Origin: Thermotoga sp. Mc24
GTDB taxonomy: Bacteria; Thermotogota; Thermotogae; Thermotogales; Thermotogaceae
DNA length: 64,000 nt
Direction of reading: 5' to 3'
NCBI RefSeq assembly: GCF_000784835.1
Contig: NZ_JSFH01000009.1
Span: forward strand, 124,001 to 188,000
Made by a program: the position numbers and the translations under genes. The notes below the pieces were generated by a model that ran no database searches, had not been told where the DNA came from, and was given only the letters and a program-made list of their open reading frames with translations. The number at the start of each line of letters is the position of its first letter. Position 1 is the stretch's first letter. Shown in pieces: positions 40,094 through 56,168 of the stretch.

Positions 40094-41059
40094 TCACTGA
40101 CCTCCACCAAACAGGAAATCAATCAGTTTCTTTTCCTTATAAAGCCTTTTGCGAAACTCCATTATGGGCAGGTCACCCTGGACGAGGACATCTTTCCTTA
40201 TGTCCCTCTCCTGGGTCTCCACAACTCTCCTATCCTGGTGGAGGATTATCCTGTTTAAGGGCATGCTTAAACGGGCTATGATGGAATCAACGGGTTTCAA
40301 TCCCGTCATTTTCACGTAAAAGCGGAGGTATATCATGGTTTTCTGCCTGTCCACGGGAACAAAAAAGGCTACCACTCTCGTACCTTCACTTATGTGGTTC
40401 TGCCAGAGGTTGGGAAATATGAACTCAAGGTAAACCCTCGACTCCTCCCCGCTGAGTTCCTCGGGTCTTTTGACCCTCTGCCCCCTATCGACCTCGTTGA
40501 ACACGTAAAAAATGAAACTGTCTTCGTCTATCCACTTGACGACGGGGCCGTGGACCAGGGTCCTGTTTCCCCGGCCTATGGTGGTTCTGTGGACGAAAGG
40601 TAGGTGCATGACGTCGAGCTGGTTCTCAACCGCCCTCGGGAACGGGACGTTCCAGAGCTCCCTGAACTCCGCATAAGCGAAGTCCTCATCTATATCATCG
40701 AAGAACTTTGGCTCCTTCTCTGGCTCTCCTTCTCCGAACCAGAGCCATATTATGTTATTTTTTTCGTAAACCGGGTATGAATTAACCCTAAATCTATCAG
40801 GAACTTTGTAGTTCTTCCCGAGGGCCGGTATAAGCCTCACCCTGCCGTTACCGTCGTACTCAAACCCGTGAAAGGGGCACTGGATTCTATCGTTTATAAC
40901 CTTCCCCGCTGAGAGCCTAGCCCTCCGGTGCACGCAGAAGTCTTCCAGGGCGTAGACTTTTCCCAAGCTGTCCCTCCAGAACACCAGGTCTCTCCCGAGT
41001 CGCCTAACTCCAACGGGTTTTCTCCTCACCTCATTCGATGAAAGAACTGCAAACCACAT
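40094..41059 (-). CDS. Rieske non-heme iron oxygenase, alpha-subunit type
   Basis: A 321-residue oxygenase-like protein. The Rieske [2Fe-2S] motif is CVHRRARL ... CPFHGFEYD (CxH and CxxH) at about residues 38-66. The mononuclear iron motif is in NQLDVMHLPFVH (D-x2-H-x4-H) near 150. This is the layout of pheophorbide a oxygenase / vanillate demethylase-type enzymes that hydroxylate or demethylate with O2. That is odd for a strict anaerobe; the substrate is unknown. ATG 41059 has only a weak ribosome site. It is first of the three-gene group next to tRNA-fMet, and I infer transfer, perhaps from a hyperthermophilic archaeon. Confidence 0.85.
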   Translation of the reverse strand: MWFAVLSSNEVRRKPVGVRRLGRDLVFWRDSLGKVYALEDFCVHRRARLSAGKVINDRIQCPFHGFEYDGNGRVRLIPALGKNYKVPDRFRVNSYPVYEKNNIIWLWFGEGEPEKEPKFFDDIDEDFAYAEFRELWNVPFPRAVENQLDVMHLPFVHRTTIGRGNRTLVHGPVVKWIDEDSFIFYVFNEVDRGQRVKRPEELSGEESRVYLEFIFPNLWQNHISEGTRVVAFFVPVDRQKTMIYLRFYVKMTGLKPVDSIIARLSMPLNRIILHQDRRVVETQERDIRKDVLVQGDLPIMEFRKRLYKEKKLIDFLFGGGQ

Positions 41060-41111
41060 TGAAGACACTTCTTGCGGCGCCCCCCCATCGTCCGTTGTTT
41101 GTTTTTTCTTA

Positions 41112-41526: not shown

Positions 41527-41608
41527 ACTTGCCAAATTGTTCCAGGGCTGAAAGGAATGTTTGGTATCACGGTCTTTTGATTACACTCAATTTTAATATC
41601 TCAACCGC

Positions 41609-42781
41609 TCACCCCTCAAACCTCTGAAGAGAAATCAACACACCTCCTGCGATGAGCGCCATGGAAGTGGTTATGAAGATGTGCGCCGTTGCAACGTAAC
41701 TGGAAAGAAATCCAAAGAAACCATAGGAAACGGGCAGTAGCGAGAAAGATACGGCTGAGATCAGAGAAAAGATCTTTCCTCTCATTTCCTCAGGTATTGC
41801 CAGTTGAAGCAGTGTGATAACGTTTATGTTGAAAAGGGTTTGAAAGATTCCAATGAGGAAATACATGGCAAACATAAGCCAATGGTTACCCGTCATGGCA
41901 AACACGAAAACAGCCAGCCCGTATCCCATCAGATTCAAACCCAGGGTTTTCGCACTGGCTCTTGTTTTTATCGTTGCCATCAGAAATGTAACAATCAGCC
42001 CTCCAAACGACAGCATACTCATCAACGTTCCATAAACCCACTCGCTCTTTCCCAGTTTCGAGACGTGCTCAGGTAGCAGAACGTGCATTGAACCTGTGAA
42101 GAAGTTCATGATGGCAATGACCAGTATCGTCACCAGGATGAACCTCACCGATCTTATGTACAAAAGAGCAGATTTTATGTCCTGCCACATCTTCCTTTCT
42201 TTTGATACTTTCTTCAGATGCTTTTCTTCAACCTTTATGAACATCTCAAAGATTCCTGAGATCAAAAAGGACAGAGAATTTATGAGAATCACTCCTGCAA
42301 GTCCCACTACCTTCAGAAGGAAGCTTCCAAGGGCAGGTCCAAGTATTTTTGAGAGGTTCTTCAGCAACCTGTAGAGTGAATTCGCTCTGACCAGGTTTTC
42401 TTTTCTGACCAGATCGGGAAGCAGGGAATCAACTGCTGGATTGAAGAAAGAATCGAACACAGAGACAAGGACGGTGACGATCAAAAGAAGCGCCATCGTT
42501 AACTCTGAGAGGTACTCCATGAGAAACAGACTCATAAACAGAACTCCTCTGAGAAGATCCATAACGACCATCATGTTTCTTCTGCTGTGCCTGTCCACCA
42601 CCGTTCCAGCGAAGGGACTCACTATTATGGCAGGAAGAAAAGAGGATATCATGAAGAGGCCCACGTATTCGCTCGAGCCGGTTTTCGAGTAGAGCCACCA
42701 CGCCAGCGCAACCTGATAGATCCTGGTGCCGATCAGCGAAACGAACGAACCGGCGGCGAAAAGAAGGAGGTTTCTGTTCAA
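41609..42781 (-). CDS. MFS transporter
   Basis: A 390-residue major facilitator with about twelve membrane helices. The A-motif loop after helix 2 reads GTVVDRHSRRNMMVVMD near residues 59-75. The sequence resembles the macrolide-efflux / enterobactin-exporter (DHA3) group, with a long cytoplasmic central loop (EKHLKKVSKERKMWQ). Substrate is unknown. As last gene behind a radical SAM enzyme and a caspase-like protein it may export a peptide or small product (inference). The start is TTG 42781 behind GAGGGGGTG. Confidence 0.85.
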   Translation of the reverse strand: MNRNLLLFAAGSFVSLIGTRIYQVALAWWLYSKTGSSEYVGLFMISSFLPAIIVSPFAGTVVDRHSRRNMMVVMDLLRGVLFMSLFLMEYLSELTMALLLIVTVLVSVFDSFFNPAVDSLLPDLVRKENLVRANSLYRLLKNLSKILGPALGSFLLKVVGLAGVILINSLSFLISGIFEMFIKVEEKHLKKVSKERKMWQDIKSALLYIRSVRFILVTILVIAIMNFFTGSMHVLLPEHVSKLGKSEWVYGTLMSMLSFGGLIVTFLMATIKTRASAKTLGLNLMGYGLAVFVFAMTGNHWLMFAMYFLIGIFQTLFNINVITLLQLAIPEEMRGKIFSLISAVSFSLLPVSYGFFGFLSSYVATAHIFITTSMALIAGGVLISLQRFEG

Positions 42782-42796
42782 CCCCTTTCACCCCCT

Positions 42797-44725
42797 CTAT
42801 ACGTTCTTCAATCTGAAGGTGTAGGTGCTGACACTGAGATTGAAGTCTTCAAACCAGTAAACATAAAGGCAGTAGGTCTTGTTGATTCTCTGATCCGTCT
42901 CTTTCAGGGCCACCTCGACTTCGAACTTTTCCTCCCCACCAGGCTCAAGCGGAAAGATCTGAAAATCTCTGCTCAAGTAAATATTCTCCATCTCGCTTCT
43001 GTTTTCACACCACAGGTTGAAACACACCAGGTTGTTCGTGGTGTGGGCATTTTCGTTCCAGACTTTCACGGAGAAGATCTTTCTGTCGGGTTGCTCGTGA
43101 ACAAGGGCTATCTCAGGATACTTCGGGGGCTGAACGCTCTCGGTGTCAAAAACGTTGTGACAGTTGCTGCAAAATCCAGAGTATCTTTTCACAGGTACGA
43201 GAGTGTTTTCGCTCTCCTTTATCGATAGGTAATTACCGCAGTACGGACACCTGGTGATTTTGTGAAGGTCTTCTTCTGCGCATCTGATCGTCATGTTTTC
43301 GCCGTACACCTCTATGAAGAACTTCGGATTCTGTGAAAGAAGATGATCAGCTAGGAATTTATAGATTCTTTCCTCCACCATCGACAGATTCTTATTCAAT
43401 CTGTGCAGATCGAAGTTCTTCAGGTTTCTGTTTGCTTCATCCAGAACCTCCGTCTGCTCGTTTATCTTCGAGAAGTAATCGTGAACCTGATTCTGGATCT
43501 TCTTGTGCCTGAATCCCAGAAGTTCCAGTTTTCTCATGTTGAAATATCTTTTTGAATACACATCTACTCTTGGCTTTTTCCCCACTCCAAAGATAATTCT
43601 CAATGGCCCATTCACTTCTTCCCAGGAATACAAAAAGAGTTTGACACTGTTTTTGAGCGGATAGGGTATCACCGAGTAGAACACGTCTTTCTTTATCTCA
43701 TTGTTGGAAAACACATAGAACCGCCTTTTCAATACTTCATTGAGAATGTCTTTCTCTGCATGAATCTCCAGAAGCCTCATTCCAGGAATTCTGTCGATAT
43801 CTACAACTATTTCGTTTTTTTCCATTCTCAGCCTGTCTATTTCCAGTTTTTCTGGATTGGTCACCTTTGCGTTCGGAAAGCCATAGAGTATGTATGGGAA
43901 ATAGTCCGAGCAGTGGTTGTAGGAATTCGTGTTCAGGATGTAGAGCACCTCTCCTGCTTCGAATCCATGAGAGATGAGATGGTGGAAAAGCAGAGCCTCA
44001 CTGGTATAGCCTTGCTTTGGTCTATAAGAGCTGATGAGAACTTTCGCGTTCTTCAAAAAATTCATGCCGACATTTATGTAGTCTCCCTTCTCTGAGGTGG
44101 AAATGAGAGTGCTTGAACACGAGTCCATGAAGATACACTCGGCCTGGACATCCTGAGCGTAAACCCTTTTATATTCACAGTTCTGACAGTCCGGGAAGTG
44201 TCTGTATATCTCTTCCAGAGGGATGTCTCTGTTGATTCCGCAGATCTTTCCGTCACTCAGATGCAGATGCCTTCTGTTTCCATCTATCACCATGCTCAAA
44301 CAGAGCTTTTTGTGCTTCATCCTGTCGAAGTTGTTCACCGTGCTTTCGTATCGCGTGAAAACTTCCGCGTTAAGTCTGTGTTTTATACTTTTGTTTTCCT
44401 TCCTCAAGATTATGAGATACTGCTGGGGATCAAGTGCGATCTGTTCCTGATAATTTGCGAGTTTTTCTCTCAGCAGATCGATGGAGAGGGCAGATATGAC
44501 TCCAAAGTAAATGCCCCTGTCTCTGGAGTATTCATATGCCTTCCTCAGGAAATTCTCCGTCAGCAGTTTTGGATCGCACACGATTATGAAGTCATTTTCT
44601 ATCTCTTCCTTTCCTTCGAAGCTATCGGGGGACATTTCATGGATTCTGAATTCATCGAGAAAATCAGCCAATATCCTGGCTGAAAGACCATATTCATCCC
44701 CTCTGAAAGTCACAACCTCAAGCAT
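42797..44725 (-). CDS. Caspase-like (CHAT/C25-type) protein with zinc ribbon
   Basis: A 642-residue protein I cannot place in a named family. Residues ~140-285 look like a caspase-fold domain: HLHLSDG (H153/H155), then ECIFMDSCSS (C203). KVLISSYRPKQGYTSEALLF and FPYILYGFP follow, the pattern seen in CHAT and gingipain-type domains. I infer a Cys-His dyad. A zinc ribbon (CPYC ... CSNC) is near 495-525. The last ~100 residues form a beta-sandwich-like tail. There is no signal peptide. It overlaps the radical SAM gene by eight bases and precedes an MFS gene by 15, so the three act as one unit. The role may be peptide cleavage. Confidence 0.65.
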   Translation of the reverse strand: MLEVVTFRGDEYGLSARILADFLDEFRIHEMSPDSFEGKEEIENDFIIVCDPKLLTENFLRKAYEYSRDRGIYFGVISALSIDLLREKLANYQEQIALDPQQYLIILRKENKSIKHRLNAEVFTRYESTVNNFDRMKHKKLCLSMVIDGNRRHLHLSDGKICGINRDIPLEEIYRHFPDCQNCEYKRVYAQDVQAECIFMDSCSSTLISTSEKGDYINVGMNFLKNAKVLISSYRPKQGYTSEALLFHHLISHGFEAGEVLYILNTNSYNHCSDYFPYILYGFPNAKVTNPEKLEIDRLRMEKNEIVVDIDRIPGMRLLEIHAEKDILNEVLKRRFYVFSNNEIKKDVFYSVIPYPLKNSVKLFLYSWEEVNGPLRIIFGVGKKPRVDVYSKRYFNMRKLELLGFRHKKIQNQVHDYFSKINEQTEVLDEANRNLKNFDLHRLNKNLSMVEERIYKFLADHLLSQNPKFFIEVYGENMTIRCAEEDLHKITRCPYCGNYLSIKESENTLVPVKRYSGFCSNCHNVFDTESVQPPKYPEIALVHEQPDRKIFSVKVWNENAHTTNNLVCFNLWCENRSEMENIYLSRDFQIFPLEPGGEEKFEVEVALKETDQRINKTYCLYVYWFEDFNLSVSTYTFRLKNV

Positions 44726-46547
44726 TCGACATTCCCCCCTGATAGTTGATCATCGATATATCGATACATCGATTCGAGCATCGGGAACAATTTAACTTAC
44801 ATTCTTCATTTGTTGGTATAAAATTCAAAGCCTTAGAATATTCTCTTAATAGATAATCCTCTGATATTAAAGTTTTCTGGATCTTCCAAGGACAGTATTT
44901 ATCAGTATATTCCTCAAAGTACCACGCTGCATTTATACCAAACTCATTCAGGAGATTCTCAAGATCACTGACAGTATTGAAGTTTTTGCTGTGCAAATAG
45001 TGCAATAAGAAAGCTATTTCTAATCCTCCCCTTGAAATCATTGGTTGGAGTAAAGAAATTGGATGAAACACCGTTGTTTCAAATTTTACAAGCGACTCAT
45101 CTTCATTTTCATCTTTTTGTCTTTTTTCCACTTTTTCGTCAACAACATCATTTGATATAACCACAGGAAATCCTTCTTTCTTAACTTTCTCTACGATGTA
45201 AAGGAATCTGTCTCCAATATCCTTAAGCGACGGAAGTTTCACATACTGGAAAGGAGTGAAAGGTTTAGGATATAAAGGATTTATACCTATTTCCAAGCGC
45301 CCATCAGTATTCTTTAGTTTGTTCATTTGATGCCGCACCTTTATTATAAGATCTGCTATCTTATCTAAATCCTCAAATGTCTCGCCAGGTATGGCTAAGA
45401 TAAAGTAAAGACCGAAATCTGGTATGCCATAGAGAGAAGAGATTTTAACCACTTCCAATATTTCCTCATCCTTTATTTCATGTTTACCAATTGCTTTGCG
45501 TAATCTTCCGCTCGTTTCTGGTGCTACAGTTATCTTTCTTTGGCCGGAAACTGCAGCAATCTCTATTATCCGCTTCGACAATTTTTCTAATCTCTGAGAA
45601 CCGATTCTCACTCTTCCTCCTTTTTTTAAAATGTATTCAAGATAATGTTCTACAATCCTAGTTTCTAGTCCTTCATAGAAGAGTTTAATTATTTCCACAT
45701 TAAACTGATCAATTGCTAGATCAACTATTTTCTTGAATGTTTCCCATCTTAAAGTCCTAGGTGGTTTTAACCTATGACCCATATAACAAAATCTGCATCT
45801 TTGGGTACATCCTCGTCTCACTTCTATAGAAAAAACTCTTTCCTCGTAAACGGTATTTTTAGTAACGAATATACTATGTGCTGGATGTGCGTTTATGTCA
45901 ACAGGACTGGTTTGTCTCACCACACCCTTTTGAAAAAAACCGTGAATACAAGGCACGTAAACCCCTTCTATCTGAGAGACAGCCTGCAGGAATTTCACAC
46001 GCTTTCCTATCACATTTCGATAAACTTTGTATAAATCTATGATTTTATGAATAACCTCTTCCGCTTCTCCTAAGACGATGATATCGCAAATTAGAGATAA
46101 TGGCAGCGGATTATAATTAGCTATGGGTCCTCCACCTACTATAATAGGATCATTTTCTTCTCTGAGAAGATTGATCAATGGTATAGAACCCGCTTTCAAA
46201 ATTTTGAAAGCATTTAACACGATTCCTTCATATTGAAAACCAATACCTATGAAATCACTATCTTTTAACTTGAAACCGTATTCGAAAGAAAAAGGCTGAT
46301 CTTCATCTGTGTAACACCTATCAACAGCAACATCATCTCTAAAATACAGCTCTTTATACAGAGTCTGGATTCCTAGATTCGGCAAACCATACTTGTACAT
46401 GTCAGGAAAAGCTAGAATGAAGATGATTTCATTGCCTTTTAAATTTTTGGAAGGAAGTATTCTCTCTTCTTCCTTATAAAGAAGAGAAGTTCTCATGTTT
46501 TCATCCCCCAAAATGACCCATTTCTTGTCCTTTGTACAAATTTTCAT
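44718..46547 (-). CDS. B12-binding-type radical SAM protein
   Basis: A 609-residue protein resembling the TIGR03960-type radical SAM group. The N-terminal half (about 38-170) has the cobalamin-binding-like fold (IIFILAFPDMYKYGLPNLGI, IIVGGGPIANYNPLPLS). The [4Fe-4S] motif is RRGCTQRCRFCYMG with C247, C251 and C254. A C-terminal cluster CKLNCSRCSNRC (C583, C587, C590, C594) could hold a second cluster. Base use is clearly more AT-rich than in both flanks, which suggests recent acquisition. AGGTAAAGG precedes ATG 46547; ATG 46493 is an alternative. Reaction unknown; methylation or thioether chemistry on a peptide is possible. Confidence 0.8.
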   Translation of the reverse strand: MKICTKDKKWVILGDENMRTSLLYKEEERILPSKNLKGNEIIFILAFPDMYKYGLPNLGIQTLYKELYFRDDVAVDRCYTDEDQPFSFEYGFKLKDSDFIGIGFQYEGIVLNAFKILKAGSIPLINLLREENDPIIVGGGPIANYNPLPLSLICDIIVLGEAEEVIHKIIDLYKVYRNVIGKRVKFLQAVSQIEGVYVPCIHGFFQKGVVRQTSPVDINAHPAHSIFVTKNTVYEERVFSIEVRRGCTQRCRFCYMGHRLKPPRTLRWETFKKIVDLAIDQFNVEIIKLFYEGLETRIVEHYLEYILKKGGRVRIGSQRLEKLSKRIIEIAAVSGQRKITVAPETSGRLRKAIGKHEIKDEEILEVVKISSLYGIPDFGLYFILAIPGETFEDLDKIADLIIKVRHQMNKLKNTDGRLEIGINPLYPKPFTPFQYVKLPSLKDIGDRFLYIVEKVKKEGFPVVISNDVVDEKVEKRQKDENEDESLVKFETTVFHPISLLQPMISRGGLEIAFLLHYLHSKNFNTVSDLENLLNEFGINAAWYFEEYTDKYCPWKIQKTLISEDYLLREYSKALNFIPTNEECKLNCSRCSNRCIDISMINYQGGMSNA

Positions 46548-46872
46548 CCTTTACCTCTCACTTGAGCCATCGGTCTTTTTCGCTTCTCCTAAAAGTATAT
46601 TATATACACTCTCTCAAAAAGTTTGCATTTCGCTCCCTGCATCTGTCCCGCCATCAGAATCAAAATCCTCCTCAACAATTCAGGAACCTTCCCACATCTG
46701 TACGGTGCCAATATTTCTCCCTCCGAGCAGATGGTAAAACACCCTATATGGTTTTCAAGTTTTAAAGAAAATTCCTCAATGATTTGAAAAGGACTTACAG
46801 AGCTGTTTTTTAGATCGTAAAATTTCTGTGAGCTTAAGTAAAAATGATTCTTTATGTATAGCAGAACGGGGG
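46548..46872 (-). other. Gene-free stretch with decayed or unusual reading frames
   Basis: No normal gene is visible. One minus-strand frame is open for about 100 codons, ending at a TAG near 46590, but it has no ATG/GTG/TTG until late. Another frame in the same region is interrupted four times, always by TGA, with protein-like stretches between (for example FYHLLGGRNIGTVQMWEGS and ESVYNILLGEAKKTDGS). A -10-like TATAAT lies at 46599-46604 on the minus strand, about 50 bases before the radical SAM gene. I read it as remnant sequence. Confidence 0.4.
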
Positions 46873-47056
46873 TTAGAAACCCTGACTTTCAACAGTTAAA
46901 TCTTCCGAGTGTGACTTCTCCAGCAGGAGAGTGTGAACAACAGTTTTTTCCCTTACTGTCGTTTGATAATCATCAGAAGGACTGGGAAACACGAGCGTGT
47001 ATAAGAGAGAAAGCAGAATAACTATTGTGAGAATGATCCTTACTCACGATTTTCAT
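46873..47056 (-). other. Candidate small exported-peptide gene, copy 1 (needs a frame change)
   Basis: Behind a conserved promoter, translation could start at ATG 47056 or GTG 47047, giving MKIVSK, but that frame soon runs into unrelated residues. Dropping one G at 47038-47039 joins MKIVSK to a frame reading IILTIVILLSLLYTLVF then PSPSDDYQTT and about 30 more residues, stopping at TAA 46873-46875. The result is a textbook signal peptide with a short tail. Copy 2 at 55.5 kb preserves LYxxVFPSxxxDYQTT in the same shifted frame. It is divergent from the TPR-HTH regulator and upstream of the radical SAM gene. It may be a frameshifted peptide gene, a recoded one, or decayed. Confidence 0.4.
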
Positions 47057-47067
47057 CCCCCTTCTTC

Positions 47068-47096
47068 ATTAGAACAGATCTTTTGTGACCTTCCAA
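47068..47096 (-). promoter_or_regulatory. Promoter of the copy 1 small-peptide transcript
   Basis: Minus strand -35 TTGGAA (47091-47096), 17-bp spacer, -10 TCTAAT (47068-47073). The same elements at the same spacing occur in copy 2 (55575-55603), supporting function. Confidence 0.55.
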
Positions 47097-47107
47097 ATCT
47101 TCCTGAT

Positions 47108-47127
47108 TTTGAAAAGCCCTTTTCAAA
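47108..47127. promoter_or_regulatory. Palindrome upstream of the peptide promoter
   Basis: Nine-bp arms TTTGAAAAG (47108-47116) and CTTTTCAAA (47119-47127) around a 2-bp centre. It is imperfect in copy 2 (one changed base). Possible operator. Confidence 0.4.
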
Positions 47128-47167
47128 GCGTTCTGCGATAGAGGATTTTCATTGAGATTTCATATTT

Positions 47168-47195
47168 TGTGTAATTTCACTCCTAACGTTACACA
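47168..47195. promoter_or_regulatory. Inverted repeat, candidate operator of the TPR-HTH regulator (copy 1)
   Basis: TGTGTAA (47168-47174) and TTACACA (47189-47195), separated by 14 bp, just upstream of the regulator start and its weak -10 (TAAAAT, 47205-47210). Present unchanged in copy 2 at 55675-55702. Confidence 0.5.
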
Positions 47196-47241
47196 GCAGT
47201 GTGATAAAATAGCGTAAAATGAGAATTTTGGAGGGAAAGAA

Positions 47242-48849
47242 TTGAAAAGTCATCAACTTTTGAAGGCACTATTTCAGTATGGATTTCTCTTCTCACGGCC
47301 ACTTGTTACATACTGCTTCAAAACATGCCACGATGCAGCCTGGAAACATTACATAAGATTTCTGAAATACCGTCATGAAAAACTCTATGAGGAAGCTCTT
47401 TCAGAAATAGATAACGCAATAAAGGCTTGCAACTCGATCGCCTTTCGCTACTTTCTTCTTTCAGAAAAACTCACCGTGCTCGGTTATATGGGAAAACACG
47501 AGGAAGGAATAAAACTTTACTCTCACTTACGCGGTAGAACGAGAAACGTTTCACCAAAACTCAGGAGTATATTTATTGGGAACCTTCTGAACTATTGCTC
47601 CATGTATCTACACAATGCTTTTGAATGTTTAGGAAGAATAAAGCCAGAGACTCATCATCTGGAGAAAACCTCGTATGCTTTTATACTGATAGGAAAAGCA
47701 AGATATATGGCAAGAACAGGGAACGTCAAAGAAGCGATAGAAGTCTACGAAAAAGCACTGAAAATACTGCAAAAGATTCCTCATCCTTCTGGAACAATCG
47801 CCTGTCTTAACGATATGGCATGGTATACAAAGGAGAAGGATCCAGGAAAAGCTAAAAATATGGCAAAAGAAGCACTCTACTGGAATGGATACTTTTTTGA
47901 TGCTCCGCGATTCTATGCACTGGACACACTGTTTGAGATTCAAAGGGCGACTTTTGACCCCGCAGTTGTTGAAACTGCCAGGCTGATTGTGATCGCTTCT
48001 GAAGGGTTAAAAGACAACGCAAATGATCTCTTGAAAAAGGCACGGAGACTGTGTTTGAGATTGAACAATTCCCTCTACAAAAACACAAAATCTCTCCAGA
48101 GATTTCTGAAGAGAAACACCACATCCATCAAATACCTCTCAGAAATGACGGGTATCGCAAGAAACAGACTGAGCGACATATTAAACGGAAAAACACAAAA
48201 GATCAGGGGAGAAACGTTAAGAAAAATAGCAAAGGCTCTTGAAAAATCCAACATTTTGTCTTTTCCTGCACCCCTGTTAAATGAATGGGTGAAACTGAAG
48301 ATAGAAGAGAATTTCTCGGCTTCATTGAGAGAAATAAAGACAAAAATTTTAGAGGAAAGACAAATCCTTTTTCTTGCCACCTACATGGCTCTTCTTGATA
48401 GAAAATTCCTTTCAAGGAAAGAAAGACTCAAAAAAGCATATACACTTCTTGAAGATATTGAGTCGTTCGCTGATTTCATGGCAAAAGATCACCAGACCAT
48501 GGAATTTGTTGTTTCAATGGTGAAGGCTCATCCTTTCATTGAAGGAAGAAAAGAAGCGGTGAAGAAAGCCCTTGAAAGGATGAAAAGAAAGAGACTGGAA
48601 AGATTCGCCCTGAGATACATCGAGATGAAAGAGCACGACAGAAAACTTCTTGATAGATTTCTGAGGAACTACGGAAGGTACAATGGGGTGAGGTTTGGTG
48701 TCAGGCTAAAGGGCCCGGATGTAGTAAGGGAGTTTGCAAGGAGGTACTCTCTCAAGGTTCAGCCTCTGTTTGTTGCCTTCTGGTGCGAAGAGGACGGCAG
48801 AGTGAGAAGAAGACTGGAAAGAATCTTGAGGCATATGGTCCTGAATTGA
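47242..48849 (+). CDS. TPR-repeat regulator with an internal helix-turn-helix
   Basis: A 535-residue protein without membrane segments. TPR-like helical repeats cover about residues 35-275 (GNVKEAIEVYEKALKILQKI is a clear unit). A helix-turn-helix of the Xre type lies at about 295-335 (SIKYLSEMTGIARNRLSDIL then GKTQKIRGETLRKIAKALE). A basic helical C-terminal part ends in a conserved block (KLLDRFLRNYGRYNGVRFGV). TPR plus HTH recalls peptide-sensing RRNPP regulators, but there the HTH is N-terminal, so the order here is unusual. The start is TTG 47242 behind GGAGGG. It is divergent from a candidate peptide gene and a truncated copy exists at 55.75 kb. Confidence 0.8.
   Translation: MKSHQLLKALFQYGFLFSRPLVTYCFKTCHDAAWKHYIRFLKYRHEKLYEEALSEIDNAIKACNSIAFRYFLLSEKLTVLGYMGKHEEGIKLYSHLRGRTRNVSPKLRSIFIGNLLNYCSMYLHNAFECLGRIKPETHHLEKTSYAFILIGKARYMARTGNVKEAIEVYEKALKILQKIPHPSGTIACLNDMAWYTKEKDPGKAKNMAKEALYWNGYFFDAPRFYALDTLFEIQRATFDPAVVETARLIVIASEGLKDNANDLLKKARRLCLRLNNSLYKNTKSLQRFLKRNTTSIKYLSEMTGIARNRLSDILNGKTQKIRGETLRKIAKALEKSNILSFPAPLLNEWVKLKIEENFSASLREIKTKILEERQILFLATYMALLDRKFLSRKERLKKAYTLLEDIESFADFMAKDHQTMEFVVSMVKAHPFIEGRKEAVKKALERMKRKRLERFALRYIEMKEHDRKLLDRFLRNYGRYNGVRFGVRLKGPDVVREFARRYSLKVQPLFVAFWCEEDGRVRRRLERILRHMVLN
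48611..48840 (+). repeat. Direct repeat A, second segment (regulator 3' end)
   Basis: The last ~77 codons of the regulator match 55930-56160. In the right copy this segment is joined directly to the first 60 codons, so about 1.19 kb (47421-48610) is missing there. Confidence 0.85.
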
Positions 48850-48882
48850 ACCCGGAGTTTCAGCCTTAGAATCTCTTTTTCC

Positions 48883-48891
48883 TGGTATAAT
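48883..48891 (+). promoter_or_regulatory. Extended -10 promoter of hicBA
   Basis: TGG-TATAAT with the hexamer at 48886-48891, 54 bases before the hicB start. Confidence 0.65.
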
Positions 48892-48945
48892 TTAATCGAA
48901 ATTGCCATATCATTTGTCATGATGGAAAAATGAGGGGTGAAAAAC

Positions 48946-49164
48946 ATGCGTAAAATTTTCACAGCTATCATTGAATACGATCCTGAAACAAAGCAATATG
49001 TTGGAATGGTTCCGGACGTTCCAGGTGTGCATACTGTAGGTAGTTCCTTAGAAGAAGTGAGAAGGAATTTAAAAGAGGTGCTTGAACTCGTATTGGAGGA
49101 AGCAGGAGATGAAATAAATCACCAGGAATTCGTGGCTCTTGAGATGATAGAGGTGGAAACTTGA
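48946..49164 (+). CDS. hicB: HicB-family antitoxin
   Basis: A 72-residue UPF0150/HicB-type protein. It opens with [20 protein letters not shown] then [20 protein letters not shown], the degraded RNase H fold of HicB. It has no C-terminal DNA-binding domain, so it is the short form. HicB binds and neutralises HicA. GAGGGGTGA precedes ATG 48946 (a GTG nine bases earlier is less well placed). It overlaps hicA by four bases. The antitoxin comes first, the reverse of the commonest hicA-hicB order. Confidence 0.88.
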
Positions 49165-49391
49165 GTTATCTTCCAATAGTTGATCCAAAAACTATGGAAA
49201 AGGTTTTACTGAAACTTGGATTTCAACGTGTTCGCCAAAAAGGAAGTCATGTGTTCTACAGGCACAGCAATGGCAGGTATACGACCATCCCATTTCATGC
49301 AAGAGACTTGCCCAAGTCACTTATAAGAAAAATCATCCGTGAAGCGGGTATATCAGTGGAGGAATTCAAGAAAGTACTTGAAAATCTGTGA
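49161..49391 (+). CDS. hicA: HicA-family mRNA interferase toxin
   Basis: A 76-residue HicA (YcfA-like, dsRBD fold) toxin that cleaves mRNA. The catalytic His is in [19 protein letters not shown], near residue 30, and the tail [20 protein letters not shown] is the usual HicA C terminus. It starts at TTG 49161 overlapping the hicB TGA (TTGA). The likely trans partner is the adjacent HicB. Confidence 0.9.
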
Positions 49392-49413
49392 TCTCCTCAG
49401 GGAGGTTGGGAAG

Positions 49414-49729
49414 ATGGAGACGCAAAAGGAGATGGTCTTCATCGCCATGGAATCGGAGGACGGAGGATACATCGCAAAAGCTGAAGGGTATTCGATATTC
49501 ACCCAGGGAGATACCTGAGAAGAGTTCCTTGAGATGGTAAAAGATGCGGACAAGTGTCACTTCGATGAGGATGTTCCAAAGTATATTCATGTTCATTTCG
49601 TAAAGGATGTGACGATCATGGTATTAAGCTTCCGGGAAGTGTTCCGGCAGATCGTTTGATAAGGCAATCCTGAGCGATGTAGCTGCGTGTCATGGAATCA
49701 GCATAGAGGAGATGGTCAAAAGACTGTGA
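49414..49729 (+). pseudogene. Decayed second hicB-hicA pair
   Basis: From ATG 49414 (site GGGAGG) the frame reads MVFIAMESEDGGYIAKAEGY, a HicB-like start, with a TGA at 49516-49518. It then continues in frame as EEFLEMVKDADKCHFDEDVP and KYIHVHFVKDVT. After about 49620 HicA-like pieces appear in other frames, ending HGISIEEMVKRL at 49729. One in-frame stop plus at least two frameshifts make it non-functional. It follows intact hicBA by 22 bp but is not a close copy of it. Confidence 0.8.
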
Positions 49730-51600: not shown

Positions 51601-52370
51601 CTAATACATATCGATGTTTCCGTACTTTCTTGCTGCAAATTCAATCAACCGCAGTGTGAAATAGGCCAAAACGAGGTATGCAAGACCTACTGATGCTTCC
51701 CAGGCACTTGAAATCCAGGCCTTCATTTTAAATCCTTGCAGAGTGTATATTATGCTTTCGACCGAACGCGAAAGCGGCAAAAGCTGTGAAAGCCATCTGA
51801 AAAACACGGGCAGTCTTTCTACAGGAAAACTTGCACGCTTAAGATGAAAACCATCATCTCTGCAACACCAAGGAGCATGTTGATATCTCTCATCAGCAGT
51901 CCAAGAGCTGCCACCGTCATTCCGAAACTGCTCAGAGCCAGTACACCTATCGTCATATGGGCAAAAAGGCTCGCAGTAATGGAGGGATCGAGTTTTAAAA
52001 AGCAAAATGAAACAGCCAGTCCCAGAATCACCGTGGTCAGTGCATCGATTATGTGAAAAGGCATCTTTTTTAGCATTACTTTGAATTTCGATGAAGGCGA
52101 AACAACGAAGAAAATCAACGATCCCTGATCTCGCTCGGAGAAAAATATTATGCCGAGCCCTTTAAAAACGCTTATTGAAGACAGAGCCATGATATTTGCT
52201 ATTATGAAAGCTCTCGCATCGTGCAGCGTTTTATATCCATATGCAAGAAGTGTTGAGTAAAAGAGCAGCCGAAAAATCGGATTGATGATCTTTTCAGCGG
52301 CATAGGCTTTCCAGTTCAGCCACAGGGAAACCCCTTTGTACGAAATCCAAAAATGTCTGAGCAGCCTCAC
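51601..52370 (-). pseudogene. ABC-2 type permease, frameshifted
   Basis: The frame from ATG 52370 encodes about 180 residues of an ABC-2 permease (LNWKAYAAEKIINPIFRLLF ... MMVFILS) and stops at 51819. The rest of the protein (ASFPVERLPVFFRWLSQLLP ... LIEFAARKYG) lies in another frame to 51601. Adding one G near 51836 (AGC GGT GCA) restores a 256-residue protein, the normal size. It starts 3 bp after the end of the neighbouring permease. It is either a recent pseudogene or a sequencing error. Confidence 0.82.
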
Positions 52371-52373
52371 TTC

Positions 52374-52808
52374 TCAAACCAGCTCCCCTTCCGCTCTGCT
52401 TTTTCTTTCTATCTTTTTGAAAAGAACATGTCCTAAAAGAAAGTAAAAAAGCGTGAGTAAAAGTGCGTTGAAAATCAAATCCTTTCCAGCACTGCCAACT
52501 TCAAAGGAATCTCTCATCAGCGTAACTGACCAGCTTATGGGAAGGAAACTGGAAATCACTCGAATCCATTTTGGAAGAATGTCTATCGGAAAGAGCATTC
52601 CCGAGATGAAATACACCGGATACTGGATCGTTGACATCCATGAAAAGGCGTTCTTTGAGAGTGTCAAAAGCGTTGCAAAAACGAAAGAGGTGGAAATGAA
52701 GGAAAGGACCAGTATCAGAAACGAACAGGCAAACATCACGGGATTCGAAATGGCAAACTCCAACTTCAAGACAAAATAAGAATAAGCCACAACCACGGCG
52801 GCTTCCAT
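52374..52808 (-). CDS. ABC-2 type permease, C-terminal half only
   Basis: A 144-residue product with about four membrane helices matching the second half of ABC-2 permeases, including the ISGMLFPIDILPKWIRVISS segment that lies before the last helices. The first ~120 residues of a normal permease are missing. GGGGG seven bases before ATG 52808 could allow expression, but the upstream 200 bp hold a different broken frame. It is most likely a 5'-truncated remnant. Confidence 0.65.
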   Translation of the reverse strand: MEAAVVVAYSYFVLKLEFAISNPVMFACSFLILVLSFISTSFVFATLLTLSKNAFSWMSTIQYPVYFISGMLFPIDILPKWIRVISSFLPISWSVTLMRDSFEVGSAGKDLIFNALLLTLFYFLLGHVLFKKIERKSRAEGELV

Positions 52809-55749: not shown

Positions 55750-56168
55750 TTGAAAAGTCATCGACTTTTGAAAGCACCATTTCAGCATGGATTTCTTTTC
55801 TCACGGCCACTTGTTACATACTGCTTCAAAACGTGCCATGACGCATCCTGGAAACATTACATAAGATTTCTGAAATACCGTCATGAAAAGCTTTATGAGG
55901 AGGCTCTCTCAGAAATAGATAGCGCAATTTGAAATACATCGAGATGAAAGAGTCCGACAGAAAACTCCTTGACAGATTTCTGAGGAATTATGGAAGGTAC
56001 GATGGAGTGAGGTTTGGGATCAGGCTAAAGGGGCCGGATGTGGTGAGAGAGTTTGCAAGTAGGCACTCTCTCAAGGTCCAGCCCCTGTTCGTTGCCTTCT
56101 GGTGCGAAGAAGACGGCAGAGCAAGAAGAAGACTGGTGAGGATATTACACTGGATGACTCAAGAGTGA
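55750..56168 (+). pseudogene. Internally deleted copy of the TPR-HTH regulator
   Basis: From TTG 55750 (site GGAGGG) the frame matches residues 1-60 of the 535-residue regulator, then hits TGA at 55930-55932. The next segment (KYIEMKESDRKLLDRFLRNY ... VAFWCEEDGRARRRL) matches the last ~85 residues and ends at 56168. The TPR core and the helix-turn-helix are gone. Its end overlaps the convergent aldo/keto reductase gene by ten bases. It could still make a 60-residue fragment. Confidence 0.88.

Follow-up and report, generated by a model that had tools for sequence, protein, structure and literature searches.

A Thermotogota-wide family of TPR-HTH regulators encoded beside small secreted-type peptide genes and modified-peptide operons: a probable intracellular peptide-signalling system

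Descriptions of RRNPP-type signalling come from Firmicutes and the mobile elements of these bacteria, and a survey of these systems covered Firmicutes and viruses (PMC10075063). RRNPP/RRNPPA receptors (Rap, NprR, PlcR, PrgX and AimR) carry a helical TPR superhelix and are encoded next to a small exported propeptide, which sometimes contains tandem repeats of the pheromone (PMC11343458). With the exception of Rap, these receptors place an N-terminal HTH ahead of their C-terminal TPRs. A closely comparable arrangement is the Rgg/SHP control of streptococcal RaS-RiPP operons (PMC13361665, PMC8092268), in which a TPR-containing HTH regulator lies divergent from a small peptide gene with a hydrophobic leader, and radical SAM RiPP and exporter genes adjoin. 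Within the literature collection consulted, a search for RRNPP together with Thermotoga found no report.

A locus with a similar layout lies in a stretch of 64,000 nucleotides from a Thermotoga draft genome (contig positions 124001-188000), hereafter called the window. A sequence-only reading of this DNA had described a TPR regulator with an internal HTH, divergent from a tiny hydrophobic frame, and had proposed that downstream genes for a radical SAM protein, a ‘caspase-like’ protein and an MFS exporter could modify, cut and export a peptide. The features of the locus, together with a second regulator copy in the window, are as follows.

47242-48849, plus strand: TPR-HTH-C-terminal domain regulator, 535 aa, intact, with a TTG start and a GGAGGG ribosome site
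47242-48066, plus strand: N-terminal TPR superhelix, residues 1-275 (TPR_12; helix pairs in the model), the proposed peptide-binding domain
48088-48243, plus strand: internal HTH, residues 283-334 (HTH_3/HTH_26; AlphaFold2 model)
48259-48849, plus strand: helical C-terminal domain, residues about 340-535; paralogues are closely similar here, and no known fold matches with confidence
47057-47241, no strand assigned: divergent promoter region of module-1 type, between the regulator and the small ORF
46873-47056, minus strand: small signal-peptide ORF, frameshifted in the window strain; start at 47056, hydrophobic frame 46873-47043
46875-46904, no strand assigned: recombination junction, 30 bp common to the module-1 and module-3 halves (blastn against genome G006; alignment)
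46731-46758, minus strand: conserved promoter TTGAAAACCATATAGGGTGTTTTACCAT of module-3 type, preceding the radical SAM operon
44718-46547, minus strand: radical SAM protein (Radical_SAM_N2 E=7e-31, Radical_SAM E=2e-15)
42797-44725, minus strand: 642-aa protein, genus-restricted
41609-42781, minus strand: MFS exporter (MFS_1 E=4e-40)
55750-56168, plus strand: second regulator copy, a remnant in which residues 1-60 and 457-533 are left and about 61-456 are missing

The regulator is confirmed as a TPR protein with an internal HTH by Pfam matches to TPR_12 at residues 148-212 (E=2e-9) and to HTH_3/HTH_26 at residues 285-336 (E about 1e-7) and by the positions of these matches. Likewise, the radical SAM and MFS assignments are upheld by the domain matches given above, with the radical SAM protein resembling TIGR03960, below cut-off, and not belonging to the SPASM type. 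The 642-aa protein has no match in Pfam, NCBIfam or PDB sequences, and it is found only in four near-identical Thermotoga genomes, an alignment too shallow for a useful fold. Its caspase-like identity, and with it the cutting of a peptide, is thus left without support.

Several other genes in the window were noted. A HicB/HicA pair lies directly 3′ of the regulator (48937-49391) and is 96.9% identical to positions 1340418-1340925 of genome G006, where the DNA follows a different regulator copy. Given this near-identical pair beside another copy, HicBA seems to travel with the modules. A Rieske/VanA_C-type oxygenase-like protein (40094-41068; Rieske E 9.5e-24) is encoded in this genus of strict anaerobes, and permease frames beside ABC genes at 51601-52808 look split into overlapping pieces (51819-52370 and 52374-52808), possibly by frameshifts.

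An AlphaFold2 model of the regulator (pLDDT 89.8, pTM 0.89) shows a TPR superhelix (residues 1-275), the HTH (283-334) and a helical C-terminal domain (343-533). Comparison by VIA-align gives matches to Rap (8rtc, Z 16.0), NprR (5dbk, Z 14.8) and PlcR (3u3w, Z 14.8), and many eukaryotic TPR proteins tie with these receptors at equal Z when the TPR model is used, such that the predicted fold is compatible with peptide binding without proving it. A profile of 25 family members searched against the PDB matched no RRNPP structure, the sole match being an HTH at E 0.06.

Modelled alone, the C-terminal domain reaches a pLDDT of 95.5. Foldseek returned no match for it below E 1 (best E 2.5), and VIA aligned it with a microtubule protein at Z 7.2. 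The last ~90 residues align with sigma region 4 of AlgU/WhiG at Z 4.1-4.5, a weak likeness in the model that we treat as a lead only. Among paralogues within one genome, the C-terminal domains are ~80% identical and the TPR domains ~32% identical, as if the former had been homogenised by gene conversion.

In its proposed mode of action the system resembles the Rgg/SHP control of RaS-RiPP operons. The HTH of Rgg is N-terminal, whereas that of the Thermotogota regulator is internal and followed by a further C-terminal domain. The Thermotogota propeptides are also longer than those of the Rgg/SHP systems, are of Sec/SPase type and come from a different phylum. Because the HTH comes after the TPRs and is followed by a 190-aa domain, the regulator also fails to conform to the RRNPP order. 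By architecture, then, we regard the family as RRNPP-like and not RRNPP, perhaps as a result of convergence.

The hydrophobic frame divergent from the regulator does exist, and in relatives it is an intact ORF of 57 aa that begins MKIVRRIILTIVILLSLLYTLVFPSPSDDYQTT, but it is frameshifted in the window strain. The window frame at 46873-47043 has no ATG, GTG or TTG upstream of its hydrophobic core, and the start at 47056 and its ribosome site are out of frame owing to 1 inserted nt that three sister species lack (GTGAGTAAGGATC in the window strain, GTGAGAAGGATC in relatives). This insertion lies outside any homopolymer run, which makes a simple sequencing error less likely.

Nor does the operon beside this frame belong to the same module. 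By blastn, window positions 41596-46904 align to G006 1358152-1352826, and positions 46875-49663 align to G006 1335284-1332493. Between the two matched segments lie 17.5 kb of G006 that are absent from the window strain. From module 1 come the regulator, the promoter belonging to it and the small ORF; the genes for the radical SAM, 642-aa and MFS proteins derive from module 3, together with the TTGAAAACCATATA promoter at 46731-46758. The junction of the two halves falls inside the 3′ end of both modules’ small ORFs, and module 3’s own regulator is lost from the window strain. As judged from these alignments, a 17.5-kb deletion between two modules is the event that placed the module-3 operon next to regulator 1. 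Contrary to the picture of one intact module, a deletion hybrid with a frameshifted peptide gene is probably mis-wired or dead, and the window-strain module can probably not signal to itself. The intact modules of sister species are therefore preferable for study; T. maritima and T. neapolitana have intact modules. The second copy (55750-56168) is also degraded, and little of the hydrophobic core remains in its small ORF. The same type of remnant is present in sister species, and hence this loss looks ancestral.

A search with a 25-sequence profile finds the regulator family in 60/103 Thermotogota genomes, where copy number reaches about 15. A scan of 84,980 species, which relied on two C-terminal motifs, revealed no relatives beyond Thermotogota, and none was found among the plasmids, phages and viral contigs searched.

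The idea of a paired small ORF was formed on a first set of copies and was tested with similar fixed criteria on copies outside it. These criteria specify a divergent ORF of 22-115 aa within 600 nt, with a basic N-terminus and a hydrophobic core. Such an ORF accompanies 32/42 test copies and 14/20 copies of a second set, or 46/62 combined. Controls yielded 16/156 for other genes at the same loci, 4/42 for the opposite strand and a mean of 1.05/42 for shuffled sequence. The comparison of 46/62 with 16/156 gives a Fisher P of 4e-20 for copies that are related to one another. After clustering of the regulators, the small ORF is retained in 26/38 clusters at 70% identity and in 20/28 at 50%. About a quarter of copies have no detectable small ORF under the criteria used, and at least one of these ‘negative’ copies (L141) was missed by the hydrophobicity threshold alone. 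The expectation that the small frame would be conserved beside regulator homologues was thereby borne out, and the RRNPP-like layout with an internal HTH that the sequence-only reading had proposed is supported across the phylum by these ORFs, but strict RRNPP membership is not.

The small ORF is a coding gene: pN/pS is 0.07 in Thermotoga and lies at 0.38-0.68 across a further five groups; in the f11 group (n=2) the value exceeds 1, with few changes. It looks like a gene for a secreted peptide with a leader and a short tail, of which the tail is the less conserved part in several groups. A core with the loose pattern D/N-x-x-T-[HDN]-S recurs in tails from many genera (ADKVKTDNETHSW; GDDKSNSTTHSTNPQ; ADGGDDPKDQTDSTLPPV), and modules of the module-1 type have neither this T-[HDN]-S core nor the common promoter motif. 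In two f11 genomes the tail is an exact tandem repeat of 13 aa (ANDPPDVDNLESV; DYDPPDGEVVDGV).

L101, 4233-4484, minus strand: repeat-bearing small ORF, DNA of the repeat copies differing synonymously only
L131, 4233-4454, plus strand: repeat-bearing small ORF, DNA of the repeat copies differing synonymously only

Nucleotide differences between the repeat copies are synonymous in 7/7 and 5/5 cases (12/12 over the two modules), and the 13-aa units are direct candidates for the mature signal.

Variation in the tail also tracks that in the TPR domain of its neighbouring regulator. Distances between mature parts correlate with TPR distances at r=0.81, and the partial correlation given the C-terminal domain is 0.49; the corresponding value for HTH distance given the TPR domain is -0.02. 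This pattern is what a receptor-ligand pair predicts, and shared descent may account for part of it.

In about half of the modules, a conserved promoter precedes the small ORF. The 14-mer TTGAAAACCATATA occurs in the intergenic region on the peptide strand, and in genus g1 its exact genome matches all lie in modules. Aligned sites consist of TTGAAA, a 16-nt spacer opening with AYCATAT, and a TATNAT-like -10 (also written TANNAT); the sequence ahead of the small ORF is also given as TTGAAAAYCATAT. With up to 2 mismatches allowed, 38/76 modules carry the motif; the opposite strand yields 1, and shuffles predict 1.2. Across the 103 genomes the full pattern is matched 77 times and the reversed pattern 0 times. 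At least 51/77 matches fall in listed modules: at least 43 have a listed regulator within 500 nt, and at least 8 further matches have one within 12 kb, in the same divergent run. Since the conserved element lies inside the -35/-10 spacer, repression that is relieved by the peptide is suggested. Five promoter copies in one genome (G096:C1 719269, 721837, 1128562, 1433542 and 1436696) lie away from regulator starts, several of them near radical SAM genes, and these are possible distal members of the regulon.

Maturase and exporter genes are linked to the regulators. Among 83 genes that follow the small ORF are 25 for radical SAM proteins, 20-21 for ABC transporters of the peptide-exporter type and 7 for MFS proteins, and 20 of the 25 radical SAM genes match SPASM RiPP maturase models. 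Conversely, 30/44 strong SPASM maturases from 12 genomes are divergent from and within 7 kb of a regulator, where 0.36 are expected. Clear RiPP precursors are present in some modules (three MEFLN... Cys-rich ORFs in L037, and a 31-aa ORF in L033, L036 and L039). Cys-rich small ORFs were rejected as general RiPP precursors because they are not enriched (15 modules versus 13 on the opposite strand), and the RiPP assignment consequently rests on the enzymes. Neighbouring genes that would modify and export a peptide are a supported part of the layout across the phylum, unlike the cutting step once proposed with them.

In genome G006, a 31-aa MQKMPKPVVPNDYLNPGKGCGGAGLVCGWCG ORF follows the small ORF of the module-1 orthologue. 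The T. maritima genes TM1315-TM1319, with the peptide TM1316, are very probably the intact orthologue of window module 1. Work by Frock et al. in 2013 reportedly found these genes strongly induced in stationary phase, and is said to have treated TM1316 as a possible bacteriocin, without proposing the upstream small ORF and the divergent regulator as a signalling pair. Such induction would fit a signalling model.

Taken together, we consider it probable that the small ORF, the adjacent TPR-HTH regulator and the modified-peptide operon constitute a Thermotogota-wide intracellular peptide-signalling family. In the mechanism that we infer, the small ORF would yield a Sec-exported propeptide, from which removal of the signal peptide, and perhaps further trimming, would release a short peptide with the semi-conserved T-[HDN]-S core that accumulates outside the cell. 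This peptide would re-enter via peptide permeases and bind the adjacent regulator at its TPR domain; the regulator's HTH would act at the promoter of the peptide operon. Binding is expected to lift repression, and the operon after the small ORF would usually make and export a radical-SAM-modified peptide.

Other roles for the small ORF must be weighed against this proposal. Its position as first gene of the operon, ahead of the maturase, would suit a RiPP precursor or accessory leader for the radical SAM enzyme that the regulator does not sense. We judge this improbable, because the ORF also occurs where no radical SAM gene is next to it (e.g. an MFS gene in L054), bears a leader of Sec type, in most cases lacks Cys, and has a tail that tracks the TPR domain, while separate Cys-rich precursors exist in some modules (L037 and L033). 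The adjoining radical SAM and exporter genes, together with the hydrophobic leader, could instead mean that what the regulator senses is the mature RiPP after export, or an intracellular precursor, and that the small ORF encodes a membrane or immunity peptide. This seems equally unlikely, given hydrophilic, repeat-bearing tails whose differences are all synonymous and that covary with the TPR domain beyond the remaining protein.

Readings that dispense with communication fare worse. The lack of a proper start in the window would accord with a chance frame or attenuation leader beside an ordinary TPR-HTH repressor, but the frequency of the ORF far above three controls and its coding constraint largely refute this at the family level, leaving it very improbable. 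We assign similarly little weight to the idea that the modules are mobile elements of conflict or addiction, tied to the neighbouring HicBA. The HicBA genes after two regulator copies and the multicopy, recombining nature of the modules speak for it, but the searched plasmids, phages and viral contigs hold no relatives, the cargo is a maturase and an exporter instead of effectors, and HicBA linkage is seen in Thermotoga only.

If the peptide-signalling proposal is correct, intracellular peptide quorum sensing would extend to Thermotogota, with a different receptor architecture. A bolder version, which we hold to be evenly poised between right and wrong, is that a receptor class composed of TPR, HTH and a new C-terminal domain, independently evolved or extremely diverged, is the usual means of communication in a deep-branching diderm phylum whose members are mostly thermophiles; a cell would then run up to about 15 channels in parallel, each controlling a modified-peptide operon of its own. 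The proposal would also explain what turns on the radical-SAM peptide locus that is active in stationary-phase T. maritima. Direct tests can draw on the repeat-bearing propeptides for short synthetic peptides and on the conserved promoter for defined DNA targets; regulator and promoter together offer a handle to mine modified peptides from hyperthermophiles.
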